This document shows positions 25,726-45,113 of a stretch of 64,000 nt of DNA, piece after piece. Within the stretch, counting starts at the first letter, position 1. The number at the start of each line of letters is the position of its first letter. Where the stretch lies: the NCBI GenBank assembly GCA_945787445.1, contig CALZHT010000002.1, positions 1 through 64,000 of the forward strand. The letters run 5' to 3'. The stretch is from an uncultured Desulfobulbaceae bacterium (GTDB taxonomy: Bacteria; Desulfobacterota; Desulfobulbia; Desulfobulbales; CALZHT01). The notes below the pieces were generated by a model. It was not told the DNA's origin and did not search any database. It saw only the letters and a program-made list of their open reading frames with translations. The translations under genes and the position numbers were made by a program.

Positions 25726-25736
25726 TTTTGCTCTTC

Positions 25737-28103: not shown

Positions 28104-28983
28104 TATCCACGAAAAAAATGAAACCAATGAAAAGGAAGAAATAACTATCCTTCTCCCAGCCTACAACGAGGAGTCTAACATAGGGAATACTATTCTCAAG
28201 ATCAAAAAACTGTATCCAGCCTTTGAAATTCTCGTAGTCGATGATGGCTCAAATGATAAAACAGTTAGTACTGCTATGGAAGCAGGTGCTAATGTCTGGC
28301 CCCATCCGTATAATATGGGTAATGGTGCGGCCATAAAAACCGGATTACGTTGCGCCAAGGGGGACTGGGTTATAATGATGGACGCTGATGGTCAGCATGA
28401 TCCTGAAGATATTGCCCGGCTTCTTGAATTCAAAGATCAATATGACATGGTGGTGGGGGCACGATCAAAGGATTCAAAAACATCAATGCATAGAGATATT
28501 GCGAACTGGTTCTATAACGAGCTCGCATCATATGTTACGAAATTTAAAATTGAGGATCTTACATCGGGTTTCAGGTTGGTTAGCAAGGAAACTGCCCAAA
28601 AATTTATCTATTTGTTACCAAACACCTTTTCGTATCCTTCAACACTGACAATGGCATATTTGCGCAGTGGAAGAAGTTTAAAATATATCCCTATTCAGAC
28701 CAAAAAAAGGAAAGGAAAAAGTAAAATTAAGCTAGCACATGACGGAGCGCGCTTCTTACTAATAATTGCTAAAATAGCCACACTCTTTTCTCCTCTTCGC
28801 GTATTTTTACCAATCAGTTTCTTCTCCTTCCTGACTGGAATTTTATACTATATTTATACATTTATCACAGTTCATAGATTTTCTAATATGTCTGCATTGT
28901 TAATTACGACCTCAATAATCATTTTTATGATGGGCTTGATATCAGAACAAATTAATCAAATGAGATATGACAAAGTTGAGTGA
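28075..28983 (+). CDS. GT2 glycosyltransferase, dolichol/polyprenyl-phosphate type
   Basis: The 302-residue protein has a GT2 domain (ILLPAYNEESNIGNTI, VVDDGSNDKT, GNGAAIKTGLRCAKGDWVIMMDADGQHDPEDI, TSGFRLVSKE). Two C-terminal membrane helices follow. This is the layout of enzymes that load a sugar onto polyprenyl phosphate (DPM1/GtrB-like). Such a lipid-linked sugar is what a GT-C transferase uses, so it plausibly supplies the two upstream paralogues. It overlaps the upstream gene by 29 bases, suggesting coupled translation. Confidence 0.85.
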   Translation: MTEKRLLNHNIHEKNETNEKEEITILLPAYNEESNIGNTILKIKKLYPAFEILVVDDGSNDKTVSTAMEAGANVWPHPYNMGNGAAIKTGLRCAKGDWVIMMDADGQHDPEDIARLLEFKDQYDMVVGARSKDSKTSMHRDIANWFYNELASYVTKFKIEDLTSGFRLVSKETAQKFIYLLPNTFSYPSTLTMAYLRSGRSLKYIPIQTKKRKGKSKIKLAHDGARFLLIIAKIATLFSPLRVFLPISFFSFLTGILYYIYTFITVHRFSNMSALLITTSIIIFMMGLISEQINQMRYDKVE

Positions 28984-31043: not shown

Positions 31044-32480
31044 ATGAATGTACTTTTAATAGCACCTACAAAACTTACTGGCTTGAAGGAATCAAAAGGG
31101 ACGGTTCCAGTGCCACTCATTCATTTAGCGGCGATTCTAAGAAAAAATGGCCATGAGCCCTCAATTCTTGATTTCTCCACCCTCTCCCATAAACAAGACG
31201 TTCCTGATTATGGCCTTATTCAAAAATTGCTTGAAGAAAAATTCTTAGAAAAAAAGCCGGATCTTGTTGGGATTAACTGCTTTACAACACTCCATTTCCC
31301 TTTTACGGAGAAAATCAGTGAAATAATAAAATCCTTGCAGCCAAATCTACCAGTCGTTATTGGTGGCGCCCACCCCAGTCTTTTTGCTAAGGAAATTTTA
31401 GAGAATGTACCCAGCGTAGATTATATTGTTGTCGGCGAAGGTGAGGAGCAGATGGCTAAGCTTGCCAATGCCCTCCATACACAAAACACATCTGAATTTA
31501 AAAATATTCCCTCTTTCACATACAGAAATGATCAAGGCATTATTATCTTCAACGAACGAAAAGGGTATATTGGCGACCTTGACTCTCTTCCCGAACCGGC
31601 CTGGGACCTGATTAACATTTCCGAATACTACAATGATCTATCCAGCTGGTACAATCCAAAGAACCTTTCCTTCAACACCTGCATACCGATTTTAACCAGC
31701 CGATCATGCCCTTTCTCATGTAATTTCTGCGCGTGCTACGCCACCATGGGGAGAAAATTTCGCAAACGATCTCCCCAAAAGGTAGTTGATGAAATTCAGA
31801 TGCTCCATGAAAAATATGGCCAGAACTATTTTGGTTTCATTGATGACAATGTCAACCTGGACAAAAAGCACATTCTGGAAATCTGTGGGGAGATAAGAAA
31901 ACGTAACCTTGACATTCAATATGAAACTACATGCGGAACCCATATAGCCTCATTAAACGAAGAGGTAATAGATGCATTGGCCGACTCGGGATGTGTTTTT
32001 GTCCGCCTCCCTGTTGAACATGGCAATGACTACATCCGAAATAAAGTTATTGGGAAAAATCTTGATAGAGAAAAAATATATACTGCTGCATCGTATTTGA
32101 AGAAAAGAGATATTTTCACTTCCAGCATGTTTATTATGGGTTTTCCTGAAGACACCATGGATTCTCTTGAAGATACTTACAAAATAATTTGCGAGTTGCA
32201 GCTGGATCTTAATTATGTTTTCAACCTCATCCCTTTCCCCGGCACCAGAGTCTTTAAACAAGCCATGGATGATGGTCTCTTTATTGGTGATTTTGATTTT
32301 AATAATTTATGGAAAGGCGTGATAAATCTCGATCCGGTCCAAGATGAATGCAGATTTTTTATTAAACCTTACGAGATGGTGATTGATGAACTCATGCACT
32401 ATCGCAACTTGTTTGATTCAGTGCAATTTTTCAGCGATCATGCGAAAGAACTCAACCAGCATGTCTGTGAATCTTTATAG
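31044..32480 (+). CDS. B12-binding-domain radical SAM protein
   Basis: The 478-residue protein has an N-terminal cobalamin-binding-like Rossmann domain (about 1-150, including VIGGAHPSLFAKEIL and VDYIVVGEGEEQM). The radical SAM core follows, with the CxxxCxxC motif in TSRSCPFSCNFCACY. Later residues (FIDDNVNLDKKH, FVRLPVEHGNDYIRNKVIGKNL, SMFIMGFPEDTMDSLEDTY) are typical of the class. Members catalyse methylation, ring formation and other radical reactions, so the substrate cannot be predicted. It has its own 140-base upstream region and faces the leftward sugar cluster. Confidence 0.88.
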   Translation: MNVLLIAPTKLTGLKESKGTVPVPLIHLAAILRKNGHEPSILDFSTLSHKQDVPDYGLIQKLLEEKFLEKKPDLVGINCFTTLHFPFTEKISEIIKSLQPNLPVVIGGAHPSLFAKEILENVPSVDYIVVGEGEEQMAKLANALHTQNTSEFKNIPSFTYRNDQGIIIFNERKGYIGDLDSLPEPAWDLINISEYYNDLSSWYNPKNLSFNTCIPILTSRSCPFSCNFCACYATMGRKFRKRSPQKVVDEIQMLHEKYGQNYFGFIDDNVNLDKKHILEICGEIRKRNLDIQYETTCGTHIASLNEEVIDALADSGCVFVRLPVEHGNDYIRNKVIGKNLDREKIYTAASYLKKRDIFTSSMFIMGFPEDTMDSLEDTYKIICELQLDLNYVFNLIPFPGTRVFKQAMDDGLFIGDFDFNNLWKGVINLDPVQDECRFFIKPYEMVIDELMHYRNLFDSVQFFSDHAKELNQHVCESL

Positions 32481-32525: not shown

Positions 32526-33749
32526 CTATAAGAGGCGAATAATATCGCCCTTAAATCCCTGATTACGAAGTTGTTCCATCATCGCACGGGATGAGGGCCC
32601 AACACCTATTACGATCGTAATATCATCGTTGAGAGAGTTTAAAATATCAGGAGAAATAACATTCTTATTTAATAATGTCTTTTCTTGTTTTCGAGGATCT
32701 ATATCTATAAAAGCCTTGATATTGCAATCTTTCAGTGGACTCATCGCAAGATACATGGCAGTCCTGTATGAGAGCCCCCATACAAAAATTTCTCTCTGAC
32801 TCTTTTGCAGGTTTTCTAATTCTTTGTTGCTGAGGCTGTCTGAAGTTTCAAGCCAATGTATCATGTTTTCTGCCAGTTCAAAATTCGGTTTCAACTCAAC
32901 AGCTTCCGGGTTAATAGGTTTACTAAACAAGCAGGACATTATCGGAACCGGATAATCCTCCGATATGTCTAACATTCGAGTAACCGAATTTTCCAGTTTC
33001 AATCCATAGGTACCAAAAAGCGATTCAATATGATGCAAATCGAAATGATTTATGTGCTCAATGGTCAAATAGTGCAACGAAGAATACTCTTTACAACTAT
33101 TATAAAATGCTGCATCAGGTACAGCTACGAATAGATATCCCCCCGGTGCAATATGTTCATATGCAGCTTTGGCAGCTGAGTGCAAATCGTAAAAATGCTC
33201 AAAAATATGCTTGTAGATAAGGAGGTCTGCCTCTTCTTTCCTAATAGGCATATCAAGAGCTGATCCCAAGTACGCTTCCATACCTTCAGCTTTTAGCCCC
33301 TTAACATAATCCTGACAAAGTTCAATTCCGGTAATATTATCAAAACCGTAATGCTTCAGGCTACGAATCAACTGTCCCTTTCCACAACCCACATCGACGA
33401 TACGTGAAGTGCTACTTAAACCGTAGTTTTTAAGCAACTGAGCAATATCACTATAGCACTCTGTATCAGACTGATAGTCGTGTGAAACAGAATAATAAGC
33501 ATGAATGAAATAGTGATTACTATAAAAGTTTCTAAAATCATCCTCTTTTGACACGGTGTCATAGAAAACGAAACCGCAATGACCACAGGCGCTCAGGTGC
33601 ATTCGAGAATCAATTGGGCTGTCATCAAATAAAGCGTATTCGAGATCAATTAATCTATTACTTTGACTATAATGACACAACGGACATTGGCGAATAGATT
33701 CTATTTGCCGGAAATTTTGCAGTTTGGGTAGATGCATCAATGTATTCAC
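32526..33749 (-). CDS. SAM-dependent methyltransferase with zinc finger and C-terminal Rossmann domain
   Basis: The 407-residue protein has three parts: an N-terminal zinc-site-like region (CPLCHYSQ...LSACGHCGFVFYD), a class I SAM domain (IVDVGCGKGQLIRSLKHYGFDNITGIELC), and a C-terminal Rossmann-like domain (EIFVWGLSYRTAMYLAMSPLKDCNIKAFIDIDPRKQEKTLLNKNVISPDIL). The same layout is known from sugar C-methyltransferases of the TylC3/TcaB9 type, in which I recall the third domain helping to bind the nucleotide sugar. C-methylation of a CDP-sugar is therefore plausible here. The GTG start overlaps the stop of the upstream CmcI-like gene. It is last in the leftward cluster. Confidence 0.75.
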   Translation of the reverse strand: MNTLMHLPKLQNFRQIESIRQCPLCHYSQSNRLIDLEYALFDDSPIDSRMHLSACGHCGFVFYDTVSKEDDFRNFYSNHYFIHAYYSVSHDYQSDTECYSDIAQLLKNYGLSSTSRIVDVGCGKGQLIRSLKHYGFDNITGIELCQDYVKGLKAEGMEAYLGSALDMPIRKEEADLLIYKHIFEHFYDLHSAAKAAYEHIAPGGYLFVAVPDAAFYNSCKEYSSLHYLTIEHINHFDLHHIESLFGTYGLKLENSVTRMLDISEDYPVPIMSCLFSKPINPEAVELKPNFELAENMIHWLETSDSLSNKELENLQKSQREIFVWGLSYRTAMYLAMSPLKDCNIKAFIDIDPRKQEKTLLNKNVISPDILNSLNDDITIVIGVGPSSRAMMEQLRNQGFKGDIIRLL

Positions 33750-34480
33750 TTCAGGCGAATAAGATAACCGGCCGGGGCAGCAGTAATGAGAAGTTTTTGT
33801 TCAATTTCTGTATCCACCGCAAAATTATTATTGCTTTTCAAGAACTGCTCTACAGCAGTTCTGGGATTATTACCCTTATCCCAGGGTCTATCAGGGAACG
33901 AACCAGAAGCCATCTCTTCTATGACGGTATCAAACACCACACAATAACAACCCTTACTTACAAATGGAGAATATAATTCCAGCTCCTTTAGCACATGAGC
34001 ATGAGTATGGTTTGAATCAAGCGAAACCATGATCTTTTTCTTTCCTTCCGACAACCTCTTAATCGCTTCAATTGTGCTTTTCTCTATTGACGAGCTTTCA
34101 AGGAGTCGAATCCGGTGACTCAAGGGGTGCTCAACTATTTTCTTTCTATTATGTTTACGGATATCAATATCAATACCAATAACTGTACCGTTCCCATTAA
34201 TCATCTCCAGCAATGATGCGAAGAGGAGTAAAGATCCCCCTCTTGCAACACCGGTTTCAATAATCAAGTCCGGCTTTGTCTCCCAAATTATCTCCTGAAG
34301 CGCAACAATGTCCTGTGGATACTGTATTATTGGCAGCCCCATCCAGTTGAAATTGTACGAATAGTCCTCTTTAAGTGTCTCTAAAAGAAAATGCTGCCCA
34401 CTTTCACGTAATCCACTTTTGTGGACATACGAGTTTATCCGTTTTTTCCGTTCATCAAAAAACATTTTAGTGTCATCCAT
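33746..34480 (-). CDS. CmcI / cephalosporin hydroxylase-family methyltransferase
   Basis: The 244-residue protein matches the CmcI family (rhamnosyl O-methyltransferase/CmcI): YNFNWMGLPIIQYPQDIVALQEIIWETKPDLIIETGVARGGSLLLFAS, IGIDIDIRKHNR, MVSLDSNHTHAHVLKELELYSPFV. Members are SAM-dependent O-methyltransferases in antibiotic and surface-glycan pathways. O-methylation of a glycan sugar is inferred. It starts 2 bases after the FkbM-type gene and overlaps the next gene by 4 bases, so translation is coupled. Confidence 0.85.
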   Translation of the reverse strand: MDDTKMFFDERKKRINSYVHKSGLRESGQHFLLETLKEDYSYNFNWMGLPIIQYPQDIVALQEIIWETKPDLIIETGVARGGSLLLFASLLEMINGNGTVIGIDIDIRKHNRKKIVEHPLSHRIRLLESSSIEKSTIEAIKRLSEGKKKIMVSLDSNHTHAHVLKELELYSPFVSKGCYCVVFDTVIEEMASGSFPDRPWDKGNNPRTAVEQFLKSNNNFAVDTEIEQKLLITAAPAGYLIRLK

Positions 34481-34482
34481 AG

Positions 34483-35208
34483 TTATACACTCTTCTTGAA
34501 ATTCTTTTCACTGGCGAGCATCGCATTTCGACTGAGGAAAATAGTGTTGGCATACCAGAGTCGTCCTGTGCGTGTATAAAGGAAAGGAGAAATATCCCAT
34601 AATTGATAACCATACCGCGAACAATAACTGAGTAAATCCTTAAGTTCCATCTGGTTACAGTAGGTTTCCGCAAAATTCACCTCAACATATAGAAGAGGAA
34701 TCATTTCGGAACTGAGTATATTTTCTGCGCCCTTAAGGACCTCCAGCTCAGCTCCCTGGACGTCAAGTTTCAAAATATCGATTGCTGAGATCTTATTATC
34801 ACTGCAAAACTGATCAAGGGTAACACACTCAACATCAATTTTTTTCGAACCGTATTTATTGTCTGCACTCAACCTCATCAACTTAGGATCTGGATGAAGC
34901 AGAGAGCTCGCTTCAGGAACATTAGTCACATGAAAAGGAAAAATACCGGAGCTACTGTTCAGCGCTAGAGAATACAAAAAAACTGTTTCTTCAGAATTCC
35001 ACTTTTTCTCAAGTATCCGGAACATTTCAGGGTTGGGTTCAAAAGAATGAATCGTACACTCTGGGAAAGATTCCCTATAAAGTTCAATGCTTTGGCCAAT
35101 GTTTGCCCCGACATCAAAAACTACGGGTCCAGATATTTCCAGGAGCCGCACTAAAGCTCGGAGCTTTTCAAATGATTCCTTTTCTCGATCTTCAAAATAT
35201 GTTGTCAT
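34483..35208 (-). CDS. FkbM-family methyltransferase
   Basis: The 241-residue protein has the FkbM SAM-binding start VVFDVGANIGQSIELYRESFPECTIHSFEPNPEMFRIL. Later comes CVTLDQFCSDNKISAIDILKLDVQGAELEVLKGAENIL, typical of the family. FkbM-type enzymes O-methylate polyketides and sugars, and they are common in surface-polysaccharide clusters. It is the second of four consecutive methyltransferase-type genes. Confidence 0.88.
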   Translation of the reverse strand: MTTYFEDREKESFEKLRALVRLLEISGPVVFDVGANIGQSIELYRESFPECTIHSFEPNPEMFRILEKKWNSEETVFLYSLALNSSSGIFPFHVTNVPEASSLLHPDPKLMRLSADNKYGSKKIDVECVTLDQFCSDNKISAIDILKLDVQGAELEVLKGAENILSSEMIPLLYVEVNFAETYCNQMELKDLLSYCSRYGYQLWDISPFLYTRTGRLWYANTIFLSRNAMLASEKNFKKSV

Positions 35209-35225: not shown

Positions 35226-36362
35226 CTAGAACGGGACTACTTGCCCCATAAAACCAATATTCCCTAAAATTTCCCTCATCTCAATAACATAGGGTGAGGC
35301 TGGAATAAGCAAAATATCCTCCGCCCCCAATAGTGCTAATTTATTAGAGGACATGATCTCAACCCCACTAATTGCTCTGCCTATTTTCGCAGGGGAACTG
35401 TCAAAAAGATACTTCACTTTTTTCAAAAGGTCCGGATAACTGCCAAGAACTAATTGCGTGTATTGGGAAATACCCCATATTGAAAGGGGACCACTACCCT
35501 TCAGAACTTCAGAAATAGTATTTTGAGCAGGGAGGGTTTCTGATTGTGCTGGACCTGATAAAGAAAACAAGTTTTCATCGACCTCCGCCTCCCCTATTTT
35601 GGCTGTACAGTATTGACATTCAGATGTATTGACATCATCCTCATAAAAGCGGCCATCACCTCTATCGAGTATTTGCAGTCCAGACAAAGCCATCATGTTG
35701 CTCAAGCCCGCCCTTGAAAAATGATTAATATGTTCAAAATAGAGTTCTCGCCAATTGAAAGGTGGAGAAAGGTATGCTTCTGCTTTGGGAACTTCGACAT
35801 AGAACACCGTGTTGTCATGTGAGATACTTTTCAAATTCTCTAAAAGCTGTAATGGTGAGTAAACATGTTCCAGGACATGCGAAAGAATGACAACATCAAC
35901 CTTACCTACTATATCTGACAATGCCCCATAAATTGGTATTGAAAGAGCATTTTCCACAAATGATCTGCATTTCGAACTAGTTTCTATTCCGATTAATTTA
36001 CTTTCAACATTGTCTTTAAGCCAAAAGAGCATGCCTCCTTTACCACAGCCTAGGTCAACTATCGTAGGCTTAGACATTGAAACAAATGGCTTTATTTTAT
36101 TGAAAATTCGAGCATATCTCCTGGCATCCCTCTCCGAATATCCACCGGACCCTGCTGACCTGGTATCGAGATAATATTCATTTGACCTGTAGTAGTAAGA
36201 AAAATCATCGTCCCGCAATGCAGTATTGTTGTATATAAAATGGCATCTATTACAACTAACAAGCTGCATTTCCCCCGACAACTTCAAATCATCAAATAAT
36301 GCATAATGAAGGTCTGCAATTAGGGTAGATTCTTTTTGAGCACATACGGGACATGATCTCAT
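35226..36362 (-). CDS. SAM-dependent methyltransferase, paralogue with C-terminal Rossmann domain
   Basis: The 378-residue protein has the same layout as the gene at 32526: CPVCAQKESTLIADLHYALFDD with VSCNRCHFIYN (zinc-type cysteines), the SAM domain (TIVDLGCGKGGMLFWLKDN, VDVVILSHVLEHVYSPLQLLENL), and the final Rossmann-like part (SIWGISQYTQLVLGSYPDLLKKVKYLFDSSPAKIGRAISGVEIMSS). Both share LxYALFDD after the first cysteine pair. The pair may act on different carbons or sugars of one glycan. It lies downstream of the GT4 gene after a 90-base gap. Confidence 0.75.
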   Translation of the reverse strand: MRSCPVCAQKESTLIADLHYALFDDLKLSGEMQLVSCNRCHFIYNNTALRDDDFSYYYRSNEYYLDTRSAGSGGYSERDARRYARIFNKIKPFVSMSKPTIVDLGCGKGGMLFWLKDNVESKLIGIETSSKCRSFVENALSIPIYGALSDIVGKVDVVILSHVLEHVYSPLQLLENLKSISHDNTVFYVEVPKAEAYLSPPFNWRELYFEHINHFSRAGLSNMMALSGLQILDRGDGRFYEDDVNTSECQYCTAKIGEAEVDENLFSLSGPAQSETLPAQNTISEVLKGSGPLSIWGISQYTQLVLGSYPDLLKKVKYLFDSSPAKIGRAISGVEIMSSNKLALLGAEDILLIPASPYVIEMREILGNIGFMGQVVPF

Positions 36363-36452: not shown

Positions 36453-37811
36453 TTAATTGATGATTTGTTCATGCAGGAGACCGTTTGTCAGAAATCGACA
36501 GATCTTCTCCAATATGGGATCATCGGGAAGAGCATTTTGATAGTGAAACGGCGACCCTCTTGTCTTTGAAAAACAGGCAGGCGGCATATCAGACAGATCT
36601 TCTTTGTAATTGGCGTTCCCATTGAGAAATGAAAGTAGTTTTTCAGTTTCTTTTGAATCTCCGTATGAATTCAACATGAGTGTTGTGGTAGAATCTTTGG
36701 GAACGTTTTCAAACCGAATCAACTCAAGGTGATGTTTTCGCTTTTTGCGTTTCAACACCTCATTATACAACCTATGCCACTGGTGAACCGTCCCTTCTAT
36801 GCCAAAATTATCTTGCACATACTCTCTTGCCTCTTCAGCCATTTTTTGCCTAATATGAGGATTATTTTTCAAGAATAGAATCGCACGGACAAAATCATCT
36901 TTATCAGTGGCGACAATTCCGGTTTTGCCGTCCTGCACCACAAATCTCTCGCTGCCGTTATTCATAACTACCGGCACTGCACCAAATGCCATTGCCTCCA
37001 ATAGAACCTGCTCACCAGTTCCATAATGGGTGCTGTTTAAAGGATACATAAATACATGAAGATCCGAGAGTATCTCCGGAACATTAGTAACATTGCCGCG
37101 TATATCAAAAAGATGCGCAACACCTTTTTCGGAGACCTCTTGTATCAACTCGCGATAGGATGGCCCCCCACATACAATTAACGGCAATTCGGTAATTTCC
37201 GTTGCGCACCAGAATGAAATAAAATCATCATGCATTTTACAGTAATCAACAGTACCGATGTACCCAACTCTGAATTTTTCCGGCTTACTATTTTTCCCCG
37301 GAACTCCGGAGGGGATACCTGCATTGCTTTGAATGATTCTGATTTTATCAGACCATTCTGCTTTATTTTTTTCAAGAAGTGAGGACTCCTGACTATAGGG
37401 AGTTGCCAAAACAAAAAAATCAGGAAAATCGACAAGGGACTTAAAAAATATTTGCGGCACGAACATGCCATTGACATGGGACCATAAGATTGTACGCATC
37501 TCCGGCAGTGAATCGGAAGAGAATAAAGAATGTAACAGTGGGTGATTCCACCAGTGAATGTGAACAATATCGCAATTCGCAAGACGGGAGTGGAGCTCAT
37601 TTCTCTTAGTCCAGCCGTTTTCCAGATATTCAACATTGTTTGCAGCGCACCACTTCTTTATACTGGTATTAAGTGGTTCCAAAGTGCACAGTGTATGTAT
37701 AAATGTCCCACCCTTTCTACTTGCTTTGATAATTGCCCGTAATACTGTCCCCACACCTCCACCGGCGTGTGGTGACAAATGCAAGACATTACGCTGCGAA
37801 CGGCTACTCAT
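36453..37811 (-). CDS. GT4-type glycosyltransferase
   Basis: The 452-residue protein starts with an N-terminal GT-B half (VLHLSPHAGGGVGTVLRAIIKAS). The donor-binding half reads RVGYIGTVDYCKMHDDF, then DLHVFMYPLNSTHYGTGEQVLLEAMAFGAVPVVMNNGSERFVVQDGKTGIVA, the E-x7-E region of the GT4 family. A ~90-residue tail after the catalytic domain has no recognised similarity. The start overlaps the end of the upstream radical SAM gene by 8 bases. The donor sugar is unknown, possibly the CDP-sugar made by this cluster. Confidence 0.87.
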   Translation of the reverse strand: MSSRSQRNVLHLSPHAGGGVGTVLRAIIKASRKGGTFIHTLCTLEPLNTSIKKWCAANNVEYLENGWTKRNELHSRLANCDIVHIHWWNHPLLHSLFSSDSLPEMRTILWSHVNGMFVPQIFFKSLVDFPDFFVLATPYSQESSLLEKNKAEWSDKIRIIQSNAGIPSGVPGKNSKPEKFRVGYIGTVDYCKMHDDFISFWCATEITELPLIVCGGPSYRELIQEVSEKGVAHLFDIRGNVTNVPEILSDLHVFMYPLNSTHYGTGEQVLLEAMAFGAVPVVMNNGSERFVVQDGKTGIVATDKDDFVRAILFLKNNPHIRQKMAEEAREYVQDNFGIEGTVHQWHRLYNEVLKRKKRKHHLELIRFENVPKDSTTTLMLNSYGDSKETEKLLSFLNGNANYKEDLSDMPPACFSKTRGSPFHYQNALPDDPILEKICRFLTNGLLHEQIIN

Positions 37812-39090
37812 TTTTTATCAACGTATCAATATCAGGTTCATAAGTCGAATATACACCACAATAACGATGAATCCCGAACTTCATACATCTTTTGCAGAGA
37901 TCGCATTTTCTGCGTATTGACATGATCTCATCTATGGTTGTGTCAAGAAAGTTTTCTACGGCACGATTTTCTTCCGGATAAAAAAACATCATACAGTTAC
38001 TTACCGAAAGATCTGCATTGATATGAATTGAACGGAATGCATCACAAGGGAGGGAAGCTTCGCTTTGCGCGATCTTCAAACCGTCCTCAAGATCAAGAAG
38101 CATAAGGCACTGAGCTTCTTTTGCCGTTGCTGGTAGTGGGATACCTTCCTTGTATTGTAAAACATCGTCAAGTGATATCAGGTAGGCATAAACTGGATGG
38201 AATTCTATAGATAACTCCTCACACAGGTTATGGAATTTCTTGAGATCATTGCCGATGCTGTGCTTGTAAAGGTGGTAGTACAGCTCCACCTTCATCTCCG
38301 GATGTACTTCTTTTCTAAGCATCGCAACCCGTTCTAAGTTTTTAATAAATACATTCCAGCGACCACCTGTATGAGTTATTTCATACTGTTCACCCCAACC
38401 CGAAGCAGAAATACGAAACCATTCTGGCTTGGACTCGATAATTGTTTGAAAATCAATGTTATTATTATTGAGATTGCTTGAAACTGCACAGCATATGCCT
38501 TTCTGCCTGGCATAGCGTATCATCTCCGGCAAATGTCTATTGAGTGTAGGTTCACCCCACTGGTAAAGCTGAATATTCCCGACAAAAGGGTCCTCTATCT
38601 TAATCTTGTCAATGACTTCACGGAAGGTTTCAAATGGCATGCCCAAGCCAGGCGGCTTTACTTTGCCCTTGGACGCACGCGGACAGGAAATACAGCGCAG
38701 GTTGCAACTCCCGGAAACATCTATGGAATAGTCTCTTGGCTTTAGGGAAGAATAGTGAATAAAATTTTTCCCTTGCACCAGCCTACCCTCCCGGCAATAG
38801 TCACTGATCTCTTGCTCATAAAAAAATACAGCTATGATAATAAACAGATCATCAACAGGCAGCTTTGAGATGATATCAGGACTCTCTACCTTTATCCCTG
38901 AAATTTTCTGCCCGATCATTTTGGGAGAAGCGTCAATATAGCCGACTGGGTCTATGCCGTTATCCTGCAAAACCCGGGTTATTCCTCGACCCTGGTTCCC
39001 GGCTCCCCATACATAGAGCGTTCTATCACCTATGATAATGCGGAGTTTATCAAGAGATATATTTTCAACTATTTTATGCAATCCATTCAT
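37804..39090 (-). CDS. Radical SAM protein with N-terminal Rossmann-like domain (paralogue 1)
   Basis: The 428-residue protein starts at the ATG at 39090, five bases after the upstream stop; a longer frame to 39159 would overlap that gene by 64 bases. N-terminal part (about 15-120): LYVWGAGNQGRGITRVLQDNGIDPVGYIDASPKMIGQKISGIKV, Rossmann-like. Radical SAM core: DVSGSCNLRCISCPR with CxxxCxxC, then QLYQWGEPTLNRHLPEMI and FRISASGWGEQYEITHTGGRW. C-terminal cysteines (NCMMFFYPE, RRKCDLCKRCMKFGIHRYCGVY) suggest an auxiliary cluster of SPASM or twitch type. No function can be named; action on a nucleotide sugar is proposed from domain sharing and context. Confidence 0.8.
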   Translation of the reverse strand: MNGLHKIVENISLDKLRIIIGDRTLYVWGAGNQGRGITRVLQDNGIDPVGYIDASPKMIGQKISGIKVESPDIISKLPVDDLFIIIAVFFYEQEISDYCREGRLVQGKNFIHYSSLKPRDYSIDVSGSCNLRCISCPRASKGKVKPPGLGMPFETFREVIDKIKIEDPFVGNIQLYQWGEPTLNRHLPEMIRYARQKGICCAVSSNLNNNNIDFQTIIESKPEWFRISASGWGEQYEITHTGGRWNVFIKNLERVAMLRKEVHPEMKVELYYHLYKHSIGNDLKKFHNLCEELSIEFHPVYAYLISLDDVLQYKEGIPLPATAKEAQCLMLLDLEDGLKIAQSEASLPCDAFRSIHINADLSVSNCMMFFYPEENRAVENFLDTTIDEIMSIRRKCDLCKRCMKFGIHRYCGVYSTYEPDIDTLIKNE

Positions 39091-39095
39091 AGCCG

Positions 39096-40325
39096 CTAAG
39101 ACAATATTTTTTCCGCAAGATAAACACCGGTAAATTGATGCAGTCCCCTCTCTATACATTGTTGACAGAATTTGCTGGTAATCCGATTTTTTAATATCTC
39201 GTCTACAGGGGCAGTCAGAAAATCTTCACAAATATAAGGCTTATAATAAACTCCACAGAATCGGACCTTACGGTCCCACATAATTGGCAGGCACCGTTCT
39301 TCAGGGCAACGGTTCTTTTTGCGCTTAAGAGCTTTTTCGATACCTTCATCAAGGCCCATAAGAAGTAATTCCAGAGTTTTCTCTGCTTCTTCGGAAAGAG
39401 GTCTGCCATCGATGTAATCACGGACATTATCCAGGGGATAGAGATACGCCGGACTGGGTCGAAATATAAAGTCCAGCTTCTCACACAACTCCTCCATCCT
39501 GTGATAATCATCGCCTATATTGTGTTTGTATAGATGATAATTTAAGACTACCTGCATATCCGGGTGATACCGTTCCCGCAAGTTTGCCAATCCATAAAGA
39601 TTGTCCAAAAAAACTTCCCAGTTTCCTCCGGTATGGGTAACTTCGTAGCTTTCATCGAATCCGGATGCAGAAATCTTGAACCAGTCCAGCTTCGCTTCAA
39701 CAACTTCTTTGTAACCTCTTTTAACATTAAGATTAGAAGATAAAGCTGTAAGTACTTTCGCGTCTCTTGTAATTCGTATAATTTCAGGAAGTTCTCTGTT
39801 AAGAAGCGGTTCTCCCCATGTATAAAGCTGTATACTCCCGAGAAAAGGCAATTCTCGCAGAAGCTTGTCCAAGACCGATTTATATTCTTCGCTGCTCATA
39901 AAACCTACAGATGAGTGTTCATCCATATTGCCACGAGGACAAGAAATGCACTTCAGGTTGCATATACCTGAGATATCAATACTTGGATCAACGTCATTCA
40001 AATCATAACTCATTACATAATGAATACCCTTCATGAGTCCTGCTTCAATACAAATTTGCTCAATTTCGAGGTCATAGTGGCCCGAGGAAATAATTATTAC
40101 CTGTTCATCAAACGGATTTTCATTAATAGTTTTCTGGGCTGAAAGTATCGGGTAGCCTAAGGCTTTCCTCCCCTGCAAAGATTCACTGGAATCTATAAAT
40201 GCATTAATGGATATGCCACATCGCTCAAATGCGCGGCATACCCCTTGACCAACTATCATTGCCCCCCAGATGTAAACCTGCTTACCAGCAATAATCTTTC
40301 GTATATCTTTGATATTTGTTTTCAT
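39096..40325 (-). CDS. Radical SAM protein with N-terminal Rossmann-like domain (paralogue 2)
   Basis: The 409-residue paralogue has QVYIWGAMIVGQGVCRAFERCGISINAFIDSSESLQGRKALGYPIL at the N-terminus. The core follows: DISGICNLKCISCPRGNMDEHSSVGFMSSEEY, SIQLYTWGEPLLNRELPEIIRI, FKISASGFDESYEVTHTGGNW. C-terminal cysteines are in VRFCGVYYKPYICED and SKFCQQCIERGLHQFTGVY. It overlaps the stop of the preceding paralogue (ATGA), so synthesis is coupled. It is closest in pattern to paralogue 3, and retention of all motifs in all three argues that each is functional. Confidence 0.8.
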   Translation of the reverse strand: MKTNIKDIRKIIAGKQVYIWGAMIVGQGVCRAFERCGISINAFIDSSESLQGRKALGYPILSAQKTINENPFDEQVIIISSGHYDLEIEQICIEAGLMKGIHYVMSYDLNDVDPSIDISGICNLKCISCPRGNMDEHSSVGFMSSEEYKSVLDKLLRELPFLGSIQLYTWGEPLLNRELPEIIRITRDAKVLTALSSNLNVKRGYKEVVEAKLDWFKISASGFDESYEVTHTGGNWEVFLDNLYGLANLRERYHPDMQVVLNYHLYKHNIGDDYHRMEELCEKLDFIFRPSPAYLYPLDNVRDYIDGRPLSEEAEKTLELLLMGLDEGIEKALKRKKNRCPEERCLPIMWDRKVRFCGVYYKPYICEDFLTAPVDEILKNRITSKFCQQCIERGLHQFTGVYLAEKILS

Positions 40326-41605
40326 GAATGATCTTTTTTAAGAGACTCTCTTTGCGCAATGAGTTTTTCATCACCGTACACACAGTATACACGGTGAATA
40401 CCTCTTTCCTTGCAAGCTGTACAAAATTCACTCTCATTCCTGGCTAAGATTAACTCTTCTGGTGAAACGGAAAGAAAATCTTTTTCGACCAAATTCAATC
40501 CAGGGCGATACCATTCCATACACTGGGCAATATGCAGATCCCAGTTTATCCAAAGGTGATCCTCGTAATAGCAAGGGCGGTTTTTCTCTTCAGGAGATTC
40601 TGCAATTCCAATAGCCTCTTCGACCTTAAGGATCTGAAGTTCCCTGGTTCGTTCAACCTCTGAGCTGGCAGGAATGTTCGCCATTATCTTTTCTATATTA
40701 TCAAGGGGTGCCAGAGCCGCGTGACGGTAACGGATGGTGAAATCAAGTGAATCGCAAAGTTCTTTTACTTTGAGAAAATCATCCTGATTATGATTATAAA
40801 TATGAAAAAAGAGTTCGACTATCATTTCAGGGTGATGCTGCTCGCGATACTCCTTCAATTTAAAAAGATTCTTGTAGAACAGGTCCCATTTACCACCTGT
40901 GTGGGTAATTTCATAGTTTTCCCCCCACCCTGAATTCGATACTCGAAACCAAGTTGGTTTTGCTGCAACTACGGCTTCAAAATCAATAGTTACATTGAGA
41001 TTACTAGAGATAGCGCTTAAAAGGGAGTATCTGTTGGTCAGTCTCACTATCTTTGGCAATGATTTGTTAAGAAGTGGCTCCCCCCAATTATACAGTGAGA
41101 TAATGCCGGTATAAGGATCATCCCTTAATATTTTTAGAAGGAGTTTTTCATAAGTCTGAGGAGACATAAAGCCGGATTTTCTATGATCAGGGTAGTTACC
41201 CCGGGGGCAGGAAATGCATCTTAGGTTACAACTACCGGAAACATCAACTTGGTAATTAAACCTTCGTAATTCTCCATACACCAGAACGCTTTCCATTTTC
41301 TGAAAGCCTTGTTCCCGGCAATTTCCCAAAATCTCGTCAGCATAAAAACCTGACGCTATTACAATAAAAGCATTATCTTTTGAGTACTTTGCAAAAAACT
41401 CATCCGGCAATAAAATTGGATATCCAAAGGCCTCTTTCCCTTGAAGTGAGATACTGCTGTCAATAAATGCCTTTTGCTTAATACCCATTCTTTTAAAAAC
41501 CAGGCTTGCTGCGTAGCCGTCGTGGCGAGCCCCCCAGATAAAAAGTTTTCTAGCACCCACCATCTCCTTAAGAGCTTCTGGCTCAATATACGTTTTTTCA
41601 ATCAT
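40322..41605 (-). CDS. Radical SAM protein with N-terminal Rossmann-like domain (paralogue 3)
   Basis: The 427-residue protein is the first of the three to be translated. N-terminal part: KLFIWGARHDGYAASLVFKRMGIKQKAFIDSSISLQGKEAFGYPIL. Core: DVSGSCNLRCISCPRGNYPDHRKSGFMSPQTYEKLL, IISLYNWGEPLLNKSLPKIV, FRVSNSGWGENYEITHTGGKW. C-terminal cysteines: IAQCMEWYRPG and SEFCTACKERGIHRVYCVY. It overlaps the upstream SDR gene by 4 bases (ATGA), so an SDR acting on a nucleotide sugar and three radical enzymes are made from one coupled message. Confidence 0.8.
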   Translation of the reverse strand: MIEKTYIEPEALKEMVGARKLFIWGARHDGYAASLVFKRMGIKQKAFIDSSISLQGKEAFGYPILLPDEFFAKYSKDNAFIVIASGFYADEILGNCREQGFQKMESVLVYGELRRFNYQVDVSGSCNLRCISCPRGNYPDHRKSGFMSPQTYEKLLLKILRDDPYTGIISLYNWGEPLLNKSLPKIVRLTNRYSLLSAISSNLNVTIDFEAVVAAKPTWFRVSNSGWGENYEITHTGGKWDLFYKNLFKLKEYREQHHPEMIVELFFHIYNHNQDDFLKVKELCDSLDFTIRYRHAALAPLDNIEKIMANIPASSEVERTRELQILKVEEAIGIAESPEEKNRPCYYEDHLWINWDLHIAQCMEWYRPGLNLVEKDFLSVSPEELILARNESEFCTACKERGIHRVYCVYGDEKLIAQRESLKKDHS

Positions 41606-42459
41606 AAGTTTTTATCATGTAAAAGGAATTGATCTAGTTTATTTCTATCACCCCAAAAGGCCATAGGCTCATACTCGGGATAAGGGTAATATCCTAAATT
41701 AAGTTTGATCCCCCCCCCTAACTCTTCAATTCTCCTTTCTACAAGGTTTCTTATTGAGATCGGTTGGCCTGAACATATATTAAATATGCAACTCTCCTGC
41801 GCCTGTGTCGCAAGTATTGAAGTAAGTCGAGCAACTTCTTTCACTGGCAAATAATCCCGCAGTTGGTCTCCTCCCGACATGTTAAAGACAGAATCACCAC
41901 GGGATAATGCAGAATCAAGCTGAGAAAAAAGTGCTTTTTTACTTTGTCCTTCTCCGTACATATAAAAGTAGCGAAGCCACACCAGGGAAAAGTTTTCTCT
42001 CTGTTGCAATATTATCAGGTAGCGATGTAAAACATCCTTTGCAATGCCATATGGAGTAAGAGGGGCTGTATTTCTGTCTTCCGAGAGCTTTCCTTCCTGA
42101 AGGCCGTACTCAAAACATGTACCAGCCACAACAATCTTCTTGACGCCATCAGCAATGATCCTCTTTAAAAAAGAGCAATGAGCTGGTAATTCAACCTCTA
42201 TGTGAGACAAGCTGTTAAAATCATCAAGTGATCCCCATGCCAAGTGAATCAAGACATCTGGCTTTCTTAAAGCAGGATACCAACTCCCCTCTGAGGATTT
42301 TATGTCTATACAATATGTAGGAATGCCATAGTTTTCATGAAAAGCATCTAATTTCGACTTGTTTCTTCCGACAGCAACAGGTTGATAATCGTGATGGACA
42401 AGTTCTTTGATAAGCTGTGTTCCTATAAAACCGGTTGCTCCGGTAACAACTATCCTCAT
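41602..42459 (-). CDS. NAD-dependent epimerase/dehydratase (extended SDR), likely nucleotide-sugar enzyme
   Basis: The 285-residue SDR has the cofactor motif MRIVVTGATGFIG, VLIHLAWG, the Ser/Thr region VVAGTCFEYG, and the catalytic YxxxK in TPYGIAK. RYFYMYGEGQ and FNICSGQPISIRNLV are typical. In CDP-sugar clusters such proteins often reduce the C4 ketone (abequose/paratose-synthase-like). Whether it is a reductase, epimerase or dehydratase is not decidable by eye. It is coupled to the first radical SAM gene. Confidence 0.82.
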   Translation of the reverse strand: MRIVVTGATGFIGTQLIKELVHHDYQPVAVGRNKSKLDAFHENYGIPTYCIDIKSSEGSWYPALRKPDVLIHLAWGSLDDFNSLSHIEVELPAHCSFLKRIIADGVKKIVVAGTCFEYGLQEGKLSEDRNTAPLTPYGIAKDVLHRYLIILQQRENFSLVWLRYFYMYGEGQSKKALFSQLDSALSRGDSVFNMSGGDQLRDYLPVKEVARLTSILATQAQESCIFNICSGQPISIRNLVERRIEELGGGIKLNLGYYPYPEYEPMAFWGDRNKLDQFLLHDKNL

Positions 42460-42505: not shown

Positions 42506-43036
42506 TCATAGCTCTAACCTCGGCCAGGACCTATCTTTGTCTGAAATTAATGGTTGAGCCATTGGCCACGCTATGCCAATCAAAGGATCATCCCATCGAA
42601 CTCCTCTTTCACTCTCAGGATGGTAACTTTCAGAAACCTGGTAAAAAATCTCTGAGTCATCTTCCATTGTCTGATAACCATGGGCAAATCCCTCGGGGAC
42701 ATATAGCATTCGCCTGTTATCGGCGCTTAGTTCAATTCCAATCCACTCTCTAAAAGTTTCCGATTCTAAACGCATATCAATAATTACGTCGTAAATATTT
42801 CCTTTTGTGCAGCGTACCAGTTTTGCTTCCTGGTGAGGAGAAAGTTGAAAATGCATTCCCCGCAATGTCCCATTTTTCTTATTGAAAGATATATTGCATT
42901 GTTCCAGTCTTGGATTAAGAGCATGTCTTTTAAATTCTTCCTGACACCAACTGCGGGCAAAGAAACCGCGGGCGTCTTCAATGGGTTCAATATCCACAAT
43001 GAAAGCCCCCTTTAACTTCGTCTCGGAAAAAATCAT
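42506..43036 (-). CDS. dTDP-4-dehydrorhamnose 3,5-epimerase-like protein (RmlC family)
   Basis: The 176-residue cupin has RmlC marks: EDARGFFARSW, NGTLRGMHFQLSPHQEAKLVRCTKGNIYDVIIDMR with the catalytic His in RGMHFQ, and LYVPEGFAHGYQTMEDDSEIFYQVSESYHPESERGVRWDDP with the Tyr/Asp region. RmlC-type enzymes epimerise C3 and/or C5 of 4-keto-6-deoxy nucleotide sugars. Next to a CDP-glucose dehydratase, the substrate is probably CDP-linked rather than dTDP-linked. It lies between the dehydratase (248-base gap) and the SDR. Confidence 0.88.
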   Translation of the reverse strand: MIFSETKLKGAFIVDIEPIEDARGFFARSWCQEEFKRHALNPRLEQCNISFNKKNGTLRGMHFQLSPHQEAKLVRCTKGNIYDVIIDMRLESETFREWIGIELSADNRRMLYVPEGFAHGYQTMEDDSEIFYQVSESYHPESERGVRWDDPLIGIAWPMAQPLISDKDRSWPRLEL

Positions 43037-43284: not shown

Positions 43285-44361
43285 TTACGCATCACTACGG
43301 GTGTTCTCGTAACGAGCGATCTGTTGTTCGGTCATTTCTCTTATGTCTGCTTTTGCCTGGTAAGCACGATACCACTCTATCGTCCAGTCAAGGGCTGTGG
43401 TTAGGGTAAGTTTAGGGCGCCAACCCAGCTTATTTTTCGCCTTACTGCAGTCCAGTTTGAGATAACCGGCCTCATGGGGCTGCTCCTGGCCGTAATGTTG
43501 CCAGGTAGCTGTTTCACCACACTGTGAACACAAATAATCAGCTATCCAGGCAACTGGCTGGGTATCATCCTCGCTTGGCCCAAAATTCCAGGCTTCAGAG
43601 AACTCACTGCCCTCTTTCCACATTCTTTCAGCCAACATGAGATATCCACGCAATGGTTCACAGACAAACTGCCATGGACGAACAGCATTCGGATATCGTA
43701 AAATTACGGGGGTTTTATTCAGCAAGCCCTGCATAAGATCGGGGATCAACCTATCCTCCCCCCAATCACCGCCACCTATGACATTACCGGCACGTACCGT
43801 AGCGAGCCTAATTCCCTTTTCCTGCAAAAAGGACCGACGATAAGCACTGCTGACAAGCTCAGCACATCCTTTGCTACATGAGTATGGATCATAGCCCCCC
43901 AGGGGATCGGATTCACGATAGCCCCAGACCCACTCACGGTTCTCGTAACATTTATCGCTTGTGACATTAACTATAACTCGAACCGAATCGTTATGGCGCA
44001 GGACCTCCAGAAGATTTACAGTACCCATGACATTGGTTGCAAACGTATCAACCGGATCAACATAAGAAGCTCTAACATACGCCTGGGCTGCCATGTGGAA
44101 TATTATCTCCGGCTGACAGGATTTTATTGCCTTGTGTAACTGCTCCATTATTCGGATATCACCGAGAATAGAAGTCATGCTATTTGCCACTTTGCCAATA
44201 TGAAAAAGACTTAAATCATCCGCAGGCAGGGAAAATCCTGTGACATCAGCACCGAGCTTCTGGAGCCAAATGGATAGCCAACCACCTTTGAAGCCTGTAT
44301 GCCCGGTTATCAGTACTTTTTTGTTTTTCCAGAAATGCATCCCCGTCACCATATCTTCCAT
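43285..44361 (-). CDS. rfbG: CDP-glucose 4,6-dehydratase
   Basis: The enzyme converts CDP-glucose to CDP-4-keto-6-deoxyglucose. The 358-residue SDR has KVLITGHTGFKGGWLSIWLQKLGADVTGFSLPAD, a start typical of RfbG, and FHMAAQAYVRASYVDPVDTFATNVMGTVNLLEV. NVTSDKCYENREWVWGYRESDPLGGYDPYSCSKGCAEL contains the catalytic Tyr and Lys (YSCSK). WRPKLTLTTALDWTIEWY is near the end. It overlaps the cytidylyltransferase gene by 16 bases. No rfbH-type C3 dehydrase is present, so the pathway is not the classical 3,6-dideoxyhexose route. Confidence 0.94.
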   Translation of the reverse strand: MEDMVTGMHFWKNKKVLITGHTGFKGGWLSIWLQKLGADVTGFSLPADDLSLFHIGKVANSMTSILGDIRIMEQLHKAIKSCQPEIIFHMAAQAYVRASYVDPVDTFATNVMGTVNLLEVLRHNDSVRVIVNVTSDKCYENREWVWGYRESDPLGGYDPYSCSKGCAELVSSAYRRSFLQEKGIRLATVRAGNVIGGGDWGEDRLIPDLMQGLLNKTPVILRYPNAVRPWQFVCEPLRGYLMLAERMWKEGSEFSEAWNFGPSEDDTQPVAWIADYLCSQCGETATWQHYGQEQPHEAGYLKLDCSKAKNKLGWRPKLTLTTALDWTIEWYRAYQAKADIREMTEQQIARYENTRSDA

Positions 44362-45113
44362 GGTGCTTTACCTGTGCTCCATAATTCATCTAAATGGATT
44401 TTGTCACGAAGAGTATCAAGGGGTTTCCAGAAACCAGAATGTGTATATGCGGTGAGCTGTCCTTCATTAGCCAAGCGTTCCAGGGACTTTTTTTCCCATG
44501 AAGTTTTATCTCCATCAATATATTCAAAAACTTTTGGAGACAAGACGAAATAACCGCCGCTTACCCAAGTGCCATCTCCGGCAGGTTTTTCATCAAACCT
44601 GACAATTCTATTCTGCTCTACATCAAGAGCACCGAATCTGCCAGGTGGTTGGACGGCAGTAACTGTGGCAAGAGTTTTCTGTTGCTTATGAAATTCGATC
44701 AATTTAATAATATTGACATCGCCTAAGCCATCACCGTAAGTGAAACAAAAATCTTCATCATCCAAATATTGTTGAATACGTTTGAGACGCCCACCCGTCA
44801 TTGTATATTCGCCGGTGTCAATCAAGGTAACGCGCCATGGTTCAGCATTCCTTTGATGGACTTCCATCTTATTATCGGTAAAATCAAAAGTTATGTCTGA
44901 CATGTGGAGAAAATAATTGGAAAAATATTCTTTTATCACAAAACCTTTGTATCCTAAACAGATAATAAAATCGTTTAAGCCATACGTAGAATAAATTTTC
45001 ATGATGTGCCAGAGCACAGGTTTGCCACCAATTTCAACCATAGGTTTGGGCCGAAGGTGTGTTTCTTCACTGATTCTTGTTCCAAGACCACCTGCCAGGA
45101 TTACTGTTTTCAT
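44346..45113 (-). CDS. rfbF: Glucose-1-phosphate cytidylyltransferase
   Basis: RfbF makes CDP-glucose from CTP and glucose 1-phosphate. The 255-residue protein starts MKTVILAGGLGTRISEETHLRPKPMVEIGGKPVLWHIMKIYS, the nucleotidyltransferase signature with the cytidylyl-type ISEET. FCFTYGDGLGDVNI and FWKPLDTLRDKIHLDELW are RfbF-like. It is the first gene of the leftward CDP-sugar cluster, with an AT-rich ~80-base upstream region that should hold the promoter. Confidence 0.95.
   Translation of the reverse strand: MKTVILAGGLGTRISEETHLRPKPMVEIGGKPVLWHIMKIYSTYGLNDFIICLGYKGFVIKEYFSNYFLHMSDITFDFTDNKMEVHQRNAEPWRVTLIDTGEYTMTGGRLKRIQQYLDDEDFCFTYGDGLGDVNIIKLIEFHKQQKTLATVTAVQPPGRFGALDVEQNRIVRFDEKPAGDGTWVSGGYFVLSPKVFEYIDGDKTSWEKKSLERLANEGQLTAYTHSGFWKPLDTLRDKIHLDELWSTGKAPWKIW

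Follow-up and report, generated by a model that had tools for sequence, protein, structure and literature searches.

Why should three adjacent radical S-adenosylmethionine (SAM) enzymes, each extended by an additional N-terminal domain, sit in the middle of a cytidine diphosphate (CDP)-sugar operon? The question is raised by a 64,000-nucleotide stretch of DNA from an uncultured Desulfobulbaceae bacterium (contig CALZHT010000002.1), the whole of which is referred to here as the window. Three genes for radical SAM/Twitch enzymes lie in tandem on its minus strand: RS3 at 40322..41605, RS2 at 39096..40325 and RS1 at 37804..39090. The original prediction, made from the letters of the sequence, had described three coupled paralogues with an N-terminal motif, a CxxxCxxC core and C-terminal cysteines, and the corresponding minus-strand open reading frames (ORFs) are found at 37804-41605. 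We propose that the N-terminal domain holds a CDP-sugar while RS3, RS2 and RS1 each perform a different radical step, a reading in which we infer the substrate and the reactions and to which we give a probability of roughly 0.6. Since the three enzymes have in common a module of sugar-binding type and travel together in a CDP-sugar pathway, they probably remodel the sugar in consecutive steps.

The N-terminal ~110 residues of the RS enzymes (~41264-41578 in RS3, ~39996-40310 in RS2 and ~38740-39051 in RS1) are Rossmann-like and match the C-terminal domains of two zinc-finger methyltransferases of the same operon, MT1 (32526..33749, minus strand; domain at ~32529-32849) and MT2 (35226..36362, minus strand; domain at ~35229-35525). 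That one domain is common to all five proteins had been claimed beforehand, with the match between them set as the test, and the claim held: pairwise phmmer comparisons gave E-values from 3e-7 to 3e-3, and profile-profile alignment by hhalign reached 98.6% at E 1e-15 (range 1e-15 to 1e-9). As controls, two proteins of the same loci that bind nicotinamide adenine dinucleotide (NAD), the SDR-family enzyme and the CDP-glucose 4,6-dehydratase RfbG, scored 17.6% and 38%, and the glycosyltransferase GT1, the FkbM and CmcI proteins, the B12 domain and the methyltransferase catalytic domain did not exceed 38%. SDR, RfbG and the methyltransferase catalytic domain reached 8-38%, against 98.6% for the methyltransferase C-terminal domain, and the idea that the N-terminal domain resembles just any Rossmann domain was rejected on that account. 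In the PDB, the domain profile matched 3nkl (4e-7), a WbpM/CapD-type domain deposited as a UDP-D-quinovosamine 4-dehydrogenase, and VioB (7e-5), with weaker matches to Rex (5e-4) and PglD; a NeuD model is also among the relatives. The top match, the designed TIM barrel 7mcd, consisted of four weak matches and was discarded as a repeat artefact. The Rossmann-like N-terminal domain of the nucleotide-sugar acetyltransferases PglD, NeuD and VioB, which binds the sugar-nucleotide, is homologous to that of the RS enzymes, although in those proteins its partner is an acetyltransferase of left-handed beta-helix type.

Within the domain, every one of the 58 homologues has G26 and D45, the latter an aspartate that closes strand beta2. 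Rossmann folds classically contact the ribose through an aspartate at this position (PMC4777477), and binding of CDP by the N-terminal domain is suggested by homology. The matches to Rex and to the CoA_binding family, together with the need of radical SAM enzymes for electrons, could instead be taken to mean that the domain binds NAD(P)H or another cofactor, giving electrons or sensing redox state rather than docking a sugar. We consider such a role improbable, as its strongest local relatives are methyltransferase domains with no requirement for NAD and SDR and RfbG, which come from the same loci and do bind NAD, fail to match it.

The catalytic cores are intact. Each enzyme carries the CxxxCxxC motif as SGxCNLxCISCPR, the N-terminal WGA...G...FID.S...QG...G and the C-terminal cysteines; pairwise identity is 37-43%, and the genome holds no other copies of the family. 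The CxxxCxxC spacing is exact in 58/58 homologues, all of which also have four C-terminal cysteines arranged as C-x16/17-C-x29..35-C-x2-C, the Twitch motif of a predicted single auxiliary cluster. Since all seven cluster cysteines, like G26 and D45, are invariant in the 58 homologues, the pattern is not chance. Inactive paralogues were ruled out, every cluster cysteine being intact, as was a SPASM architecture, with its seven-cysteine motif and two auxiliary clusters, since just four C-terminal cysteines are conserved throughout. RS1 (31.1) and RS2 (37.1) exceed the PF04055 cut-off of 29.5, and RS3 falls below it (20.6, E 5.5e-4). The AF2 model of RS2 (pLDDT 94.6, pTM 0.92) has the predicted partial TIM barrel of radical SAM structures, which it matches in Foldseek at E 1e-9 to 1e-10; EpeE, SuiB, anSME, BlsE, BtrN and viperin are among the matches, and of these BlsE, BtrN and viperin with cytidine triphosphate act on sugars or nucleotides. 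By sequence profile, the nearest PDB structures are BtrN (1e-8) and the tetraether synthase Tes. The ORF program called RS1 as 37804-39159. A start at 39090 is probably the correct one because the N-terminus there aligns with those of RS2 and RS3, and the 64-base overlap between RS1 and RS2 is probably a start-codon artefact.

The leading fold matches of RS2 are peptide enzymes, and the closest NCBIfam model is that of a tungsten-oxidoreductase maturase (TIGR04317), which matches all 58 homologues and gives the window proteins 39-49 bits against a cut-off of 380. On these grounds the RS enzymes might be thought to modify a peptide or protein, in the manner of maturases of metalloenzymes or of ribosomally synthesised and post-translationally modified peptides, and to stand in a sugar operon for another reason. 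This seems very unlikely, given that they carry a nucleotide-sugar-like N-terminal domain instead of any known peptide-leader domain and that their sugar operon context is conserved in three major bacterial groups. None of the NCBIfam equivalogs fits RS1-RS3, no curated family includes them, and among the papers searched for a described radical SAM/CDP-glucose/O-antigen system none was relevant.

The CDP-sugar cluster of the original prediction is borne out by the neighbouring genes. A compact minus-strand run, from 45113 down to 32526, extends from the cytidylyltransferase gene through MT1. It begins with glucose-1-phosphate cytidylyltransferase (RfbF, 44346..45113; TIGR02623, 461 bits) and RfbG (43285..44361; TIGR02622, 489 bits), both of which exceed their NCBIfam equivalog cut-offs and so mark a CDP-deoxysugar pathway. 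An RmlC-type sugar epimerase (42506..43036; TIGR01221 above cut-off) and the SDR-family nucleoside diphosphate-sugar reductase/epimerase (41602..42459) precede the three RS genes, which are followed by GT1, a GT4-type glycosyltransferase directly downstream of RS1 (36453..37811), and by MT2, an FkbM-type methyltransferase (34483..35208), a CmcI/rhamnosyl O-methyltransferase family protein (33746..34480) and MT1, all on the minus strand. The overlap is 4 bases between RS3 and RS2 and 8 between RS1 and GT1. The gene for a B12-binding-type radical SAM protein (BchE-like, 31044..32480, plus strand) is convergent in the window and lies within the gene run in several relatives. Beside the operon, at 23359-28983, are two long proteins of TPR type and a GT2 similar to dolichol-phosphate-mannose synthase, and with these nearby it is possible that the sugar is destined for protein glycosylation. 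A related locus, L055, encodes a 1494-residue TPR/GT41 protein.

Is this arrangement peculiar to one genome? A single scan of 84,980 species genomes recovered the full RS triple in 14 further loci (L042-L055), from Desulfobacterota, the Gammaproteobacteria (Chromatiaceae, Methylococcaceae, Competibacteraceae) and the Zetaproteobacteria (Mariprofundus); one additional triple locus (G224) came from a sample of the window's own phylum, for which 297 whole genomes were surveyed. The order RS3, RS2, RS1, GT1 is constant in all triple loci, with an extra gene interposed in a few, and the wider order RfbF-RfbG-RmlC-SDR-RS3-RS2-RS1-GT1-MT is maintained across 15 loci. With the window counted, GT1 is present in 15/15 loci and RfbG in 10/15; in the five without RfbG, no more than 7.4 kb of sequence is available ahead of RS3, yet RmlC, SDR or both are present in four. 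The expectation that homologues keep company with CDP-glucose genes thus stands for the close ones, which have such genes upstream of the triple in every locus with sufficient upstream sequence. It does not extend to 14 more distant radical SAM relatives (in 13 of the 297 phylum genomes), which have no adjacent RfbF/RfbG orthologue and of which 13 also lack the N-terminal domain. Strong RfbG matches occur in 53 of the 297 genomes, including all four that bear the triple (hypergeometric p 9e-4, uncorrected for kinship). The genomes are for the most part metagenome-assembled, and as the loci are related by descent, locus counts do not represent independent events.

Divergent members that bear the domain are found with RfbF and RfbG in Marinitoga and with a polysaccharide-type dehydratase in an Aquificales genome; in gut and other Deltaproteobacteria and in Riflebacteria, CDP-glucose genes are not nearby. 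The locus L052 (also recovered as L089) contains a CDP-glucose-dehydratase-like gene (G278:C38:47880-48848) that scores only 217 bits, short of the TIGR02622 cut-off; the sugar at this locus may therefore have a carrier other than CDP. A deltaproteobacterium from the cockroach gut has a 65 kb plasmid (L084, CP026658.1) on which several family members, annotated as hypothetical proteins, are encoded close to a perosamine synthetase and to a gene of CmcI type.

MT2 itself resembles sugar C-3-methyltransferases. The best 18 PDB matches of its predicted structure, over the whole chain, are all to such enzymes, namely MtmC, TcaB9 or KijD1. Its Y208-x-E210-H211 aligns with the catalytic Y-x-E-H of TcaB9 (Y222-x-E224-H225), and the zinc-site cysteines C4/C7/C37/C40 are invariant, so that MT2 combines the Cys4 zinc site, predicted three-domain fold and Y-x-E-H of the TcaB9/TylC3 type. 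MT2 has diverged, with neither PF08421 nor PF08484 above cut-off, and MT1 retains the E-H of the motif and not the Y. TcaB9 uses its third domain to contact the nucleotide-sugar, and profile comparison indicates that this domain is the counterpart of the RS N-terminal domain. TcaB9, MtmC and KijD1 nevertheless act on thymidine diphosphate (dTDP)-sugars by ordinary SAM chemistry, whereas the RS enzymes carry the domain at the N-terminus, attached to a radical SAM barrel.

Canonical TylC3-type C-methyltransferases (PF08421+PF13489+PF08484) are encoded between RmlC and SDR in two triple loci (L044:5390-6613 and L050:5319-6545). The docking domain also stands at the N-terminus of FkbM-type methyltransferases (L054:3982-5130, L050:14058-15206, L048:5561-6697, L060:7725-8825), on other radical SAM proteins in related loci, and in a short 206-residue protein (L046:4473-5093).

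In a maximum-likelihood tree, obtained by a quick search that leaves some deep forks unsupported, RS1, RS2 and RS3 form separate orthologous families whose internal groupings largely match. Desulfamplus clusters with Syntrophus and not with other Desulfobacterales, an indication that the block may have passed from one lineage to another. Pairwise distances among RS1, RS2, RS3, GT1 and MT2 are correlated (r 0.78-0.93), whereas SDR, RmlC and the B12 radical SAM protein show lower correlations with the RS and GT1 proteins (0.42-0.69); the tightly linked core therefore consists of the three RS enzymes, GT1 and MT2. A fourth paralogue lies between RS3 and RS2 in three loci (L052:7189-8664, L053:7438-8712 and L051:3098-3613, the last open over just 171 residues), and a further related radical SAM clade is found downstream in three (L043:14980-16221, L050:12570-14051 and L055:12557-13792).

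The close tie to GT1 could be read differently. RS1 adjoins GT1, the two co-vary (r 0.88), and a 1160-residue ORF in one triple locus (L047:17751-21230) combines GT2 domains with a radical SAM/Twitch core (residues 36-330) that is a relative of RS1-3, as might be expected if the RS enzymes acted after transfer, on a glycan already linked to lipid or protein, while the N-terminal domain recognised another part of that glycan or a partner protein. The fused protein lacks the N-terminal domain, however, and may therefore be a different case; the domain itself is homologous to those of nucleotide-sugar proteins and has its ribose-type aspartate in 58/58 homologues. Action after transfer is thus, in our judgement, unlikely, if the most credible of the three alternatives.

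If the RS enzymes act before transfer, on the nucleotide-sugar, the product of the operon would be a CDP-linked deoxysugar that has undergone extensive modification. CDP-4-keto-6-deoxyglucose would come from RfbF and RfbG, RmlC, SDR and the TcaB9-like MT2 would epimerise, reduce and C-methylate it, and RS3, RS2 and RS1 would add one different radical step each before GT1 transfers the sugar. The N-terminal domain would bind the CDP part, with its glycine loop at the phosphates and the beta2 aspartate on the ribose, and present the sugar to the barrel, much as the third domain of TcaB9-type methyltransferases is thought to do. The CxxxCxxC cluster would cleave SAM, and the resulting 5'-deoxyadenosyl radical would abstract a hydrogen from a sugar carbon, at a different position in each barrel. 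The three families share polar and aromatic residues (LYxWGEP, N198, S221, Y227, H231, H264, Y266 and H268 in RS2 numbering), beside which stand clade-fixed residues (Q177/Y271/I305 in RS1, N262/Y296 in RS2 and N173/F266/A299 in RS3), a pattern that fits one substrate class and three reactions.

The radical steps are most likely oxidations or epimerisations, which the auxiliary cluster favours over dehydration. BtrN, the Twitch dehydrogenase of the butirosin pathway, resembles the RS enzymes by sequence in its radical SAM core and one four-cysteine auxiliary cluster; it acts on a sugar-like cyclitol, and its fully ligated auxiliary cluster is the proposed electron acceptor in the oxidation (PMC9012708). 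It differs in that it has no N-terminal docking domain, takes a free rather than nucleotide-linked substrate and is a single enzyme instead of three paralogues. By one route, then, the Twitch cluster of an RS enzyme would take an electron as an alcohol is oxidised to a ketone, in the manner of BtrN. By another, a protein thiol would give a hydrogen back, as in NeoN and HygY, aminoglycoside radical SAM epimerases to which the likeness is one of proposed chemistry. HygY is, according to the title of Besandre 2021 (cited in PMC10991966), a Twitch enzyme in which a one-cysteine mutation confers dehydrogenase activity. An extra conserved cysteine occurs in the C-terminal region of RS1 (C411) and RS2 (C345) and not at that place in RS3; by analogy with NeoN (PMC10991966) and HygY, one might speculate that epimerisation falls to RS1 and RS2 and dehydrogenation to RS3. 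For radical chemistry on a nucleotide-sugar there is a precedent in the dTDP-sugar deaminase DesII, whose NCBIfam model bears a weak similarity to RS1 (15 bits against a cut-off of 450).

Several observations weigh against a CDP-sugar dock followed by three radical steps. At four loci (L056-L058 and L061), divergent members with the domain are not accompanied by CDP-glucose genes; the docking partner is thus not necessarily CDP in every case. The domain family includes NAD binders (Rex, 5e-4) and binders of other nucleotides, and its members in the window score below the Pfam gathering cut-offs of PglD_N and Methyltransf_14. The barrel has the peptide enzymes EpeE and SuiB as its top fold matches, and the glycosyltransferase fusion in L047 could fit action after transfer. 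The original prediction is partly supported: neither of the two outcomes named as refuting it, a missing match between the domains or homologues mostly away from nucleotide-sugar genes, was observed, and the radical chemistry that it put forward stands as a proposal.

A bolder extension, which we hold only tentatively, is an assembly line in which one interchangeable CDP-sugar docking module, borne by radical SAM enzymes, C-methyltransferases and FkbM methyltransferases of one locus, would allow a single activated sugar to be passed among catalytic heads recognising one handle, the three radical steps leading to an undescribed sugar. Known sugar-acting radical SAM enzymes are mostly single enzymes of antibiotic pathways; here, a conserved triple is common to sulfate reducers, purple sulfur bacteria and iron oxidisers. 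The substrate handle, one key aspartate and three assayable enzymes provide testable targets. If the proposal is true, the triple, equipped with its own dock for sugar-nucleotides, would indicate that bacteria make a class of sugars so far unrecognised and possess a portable module that steers radical chemistry onto nucleotide-sugars.

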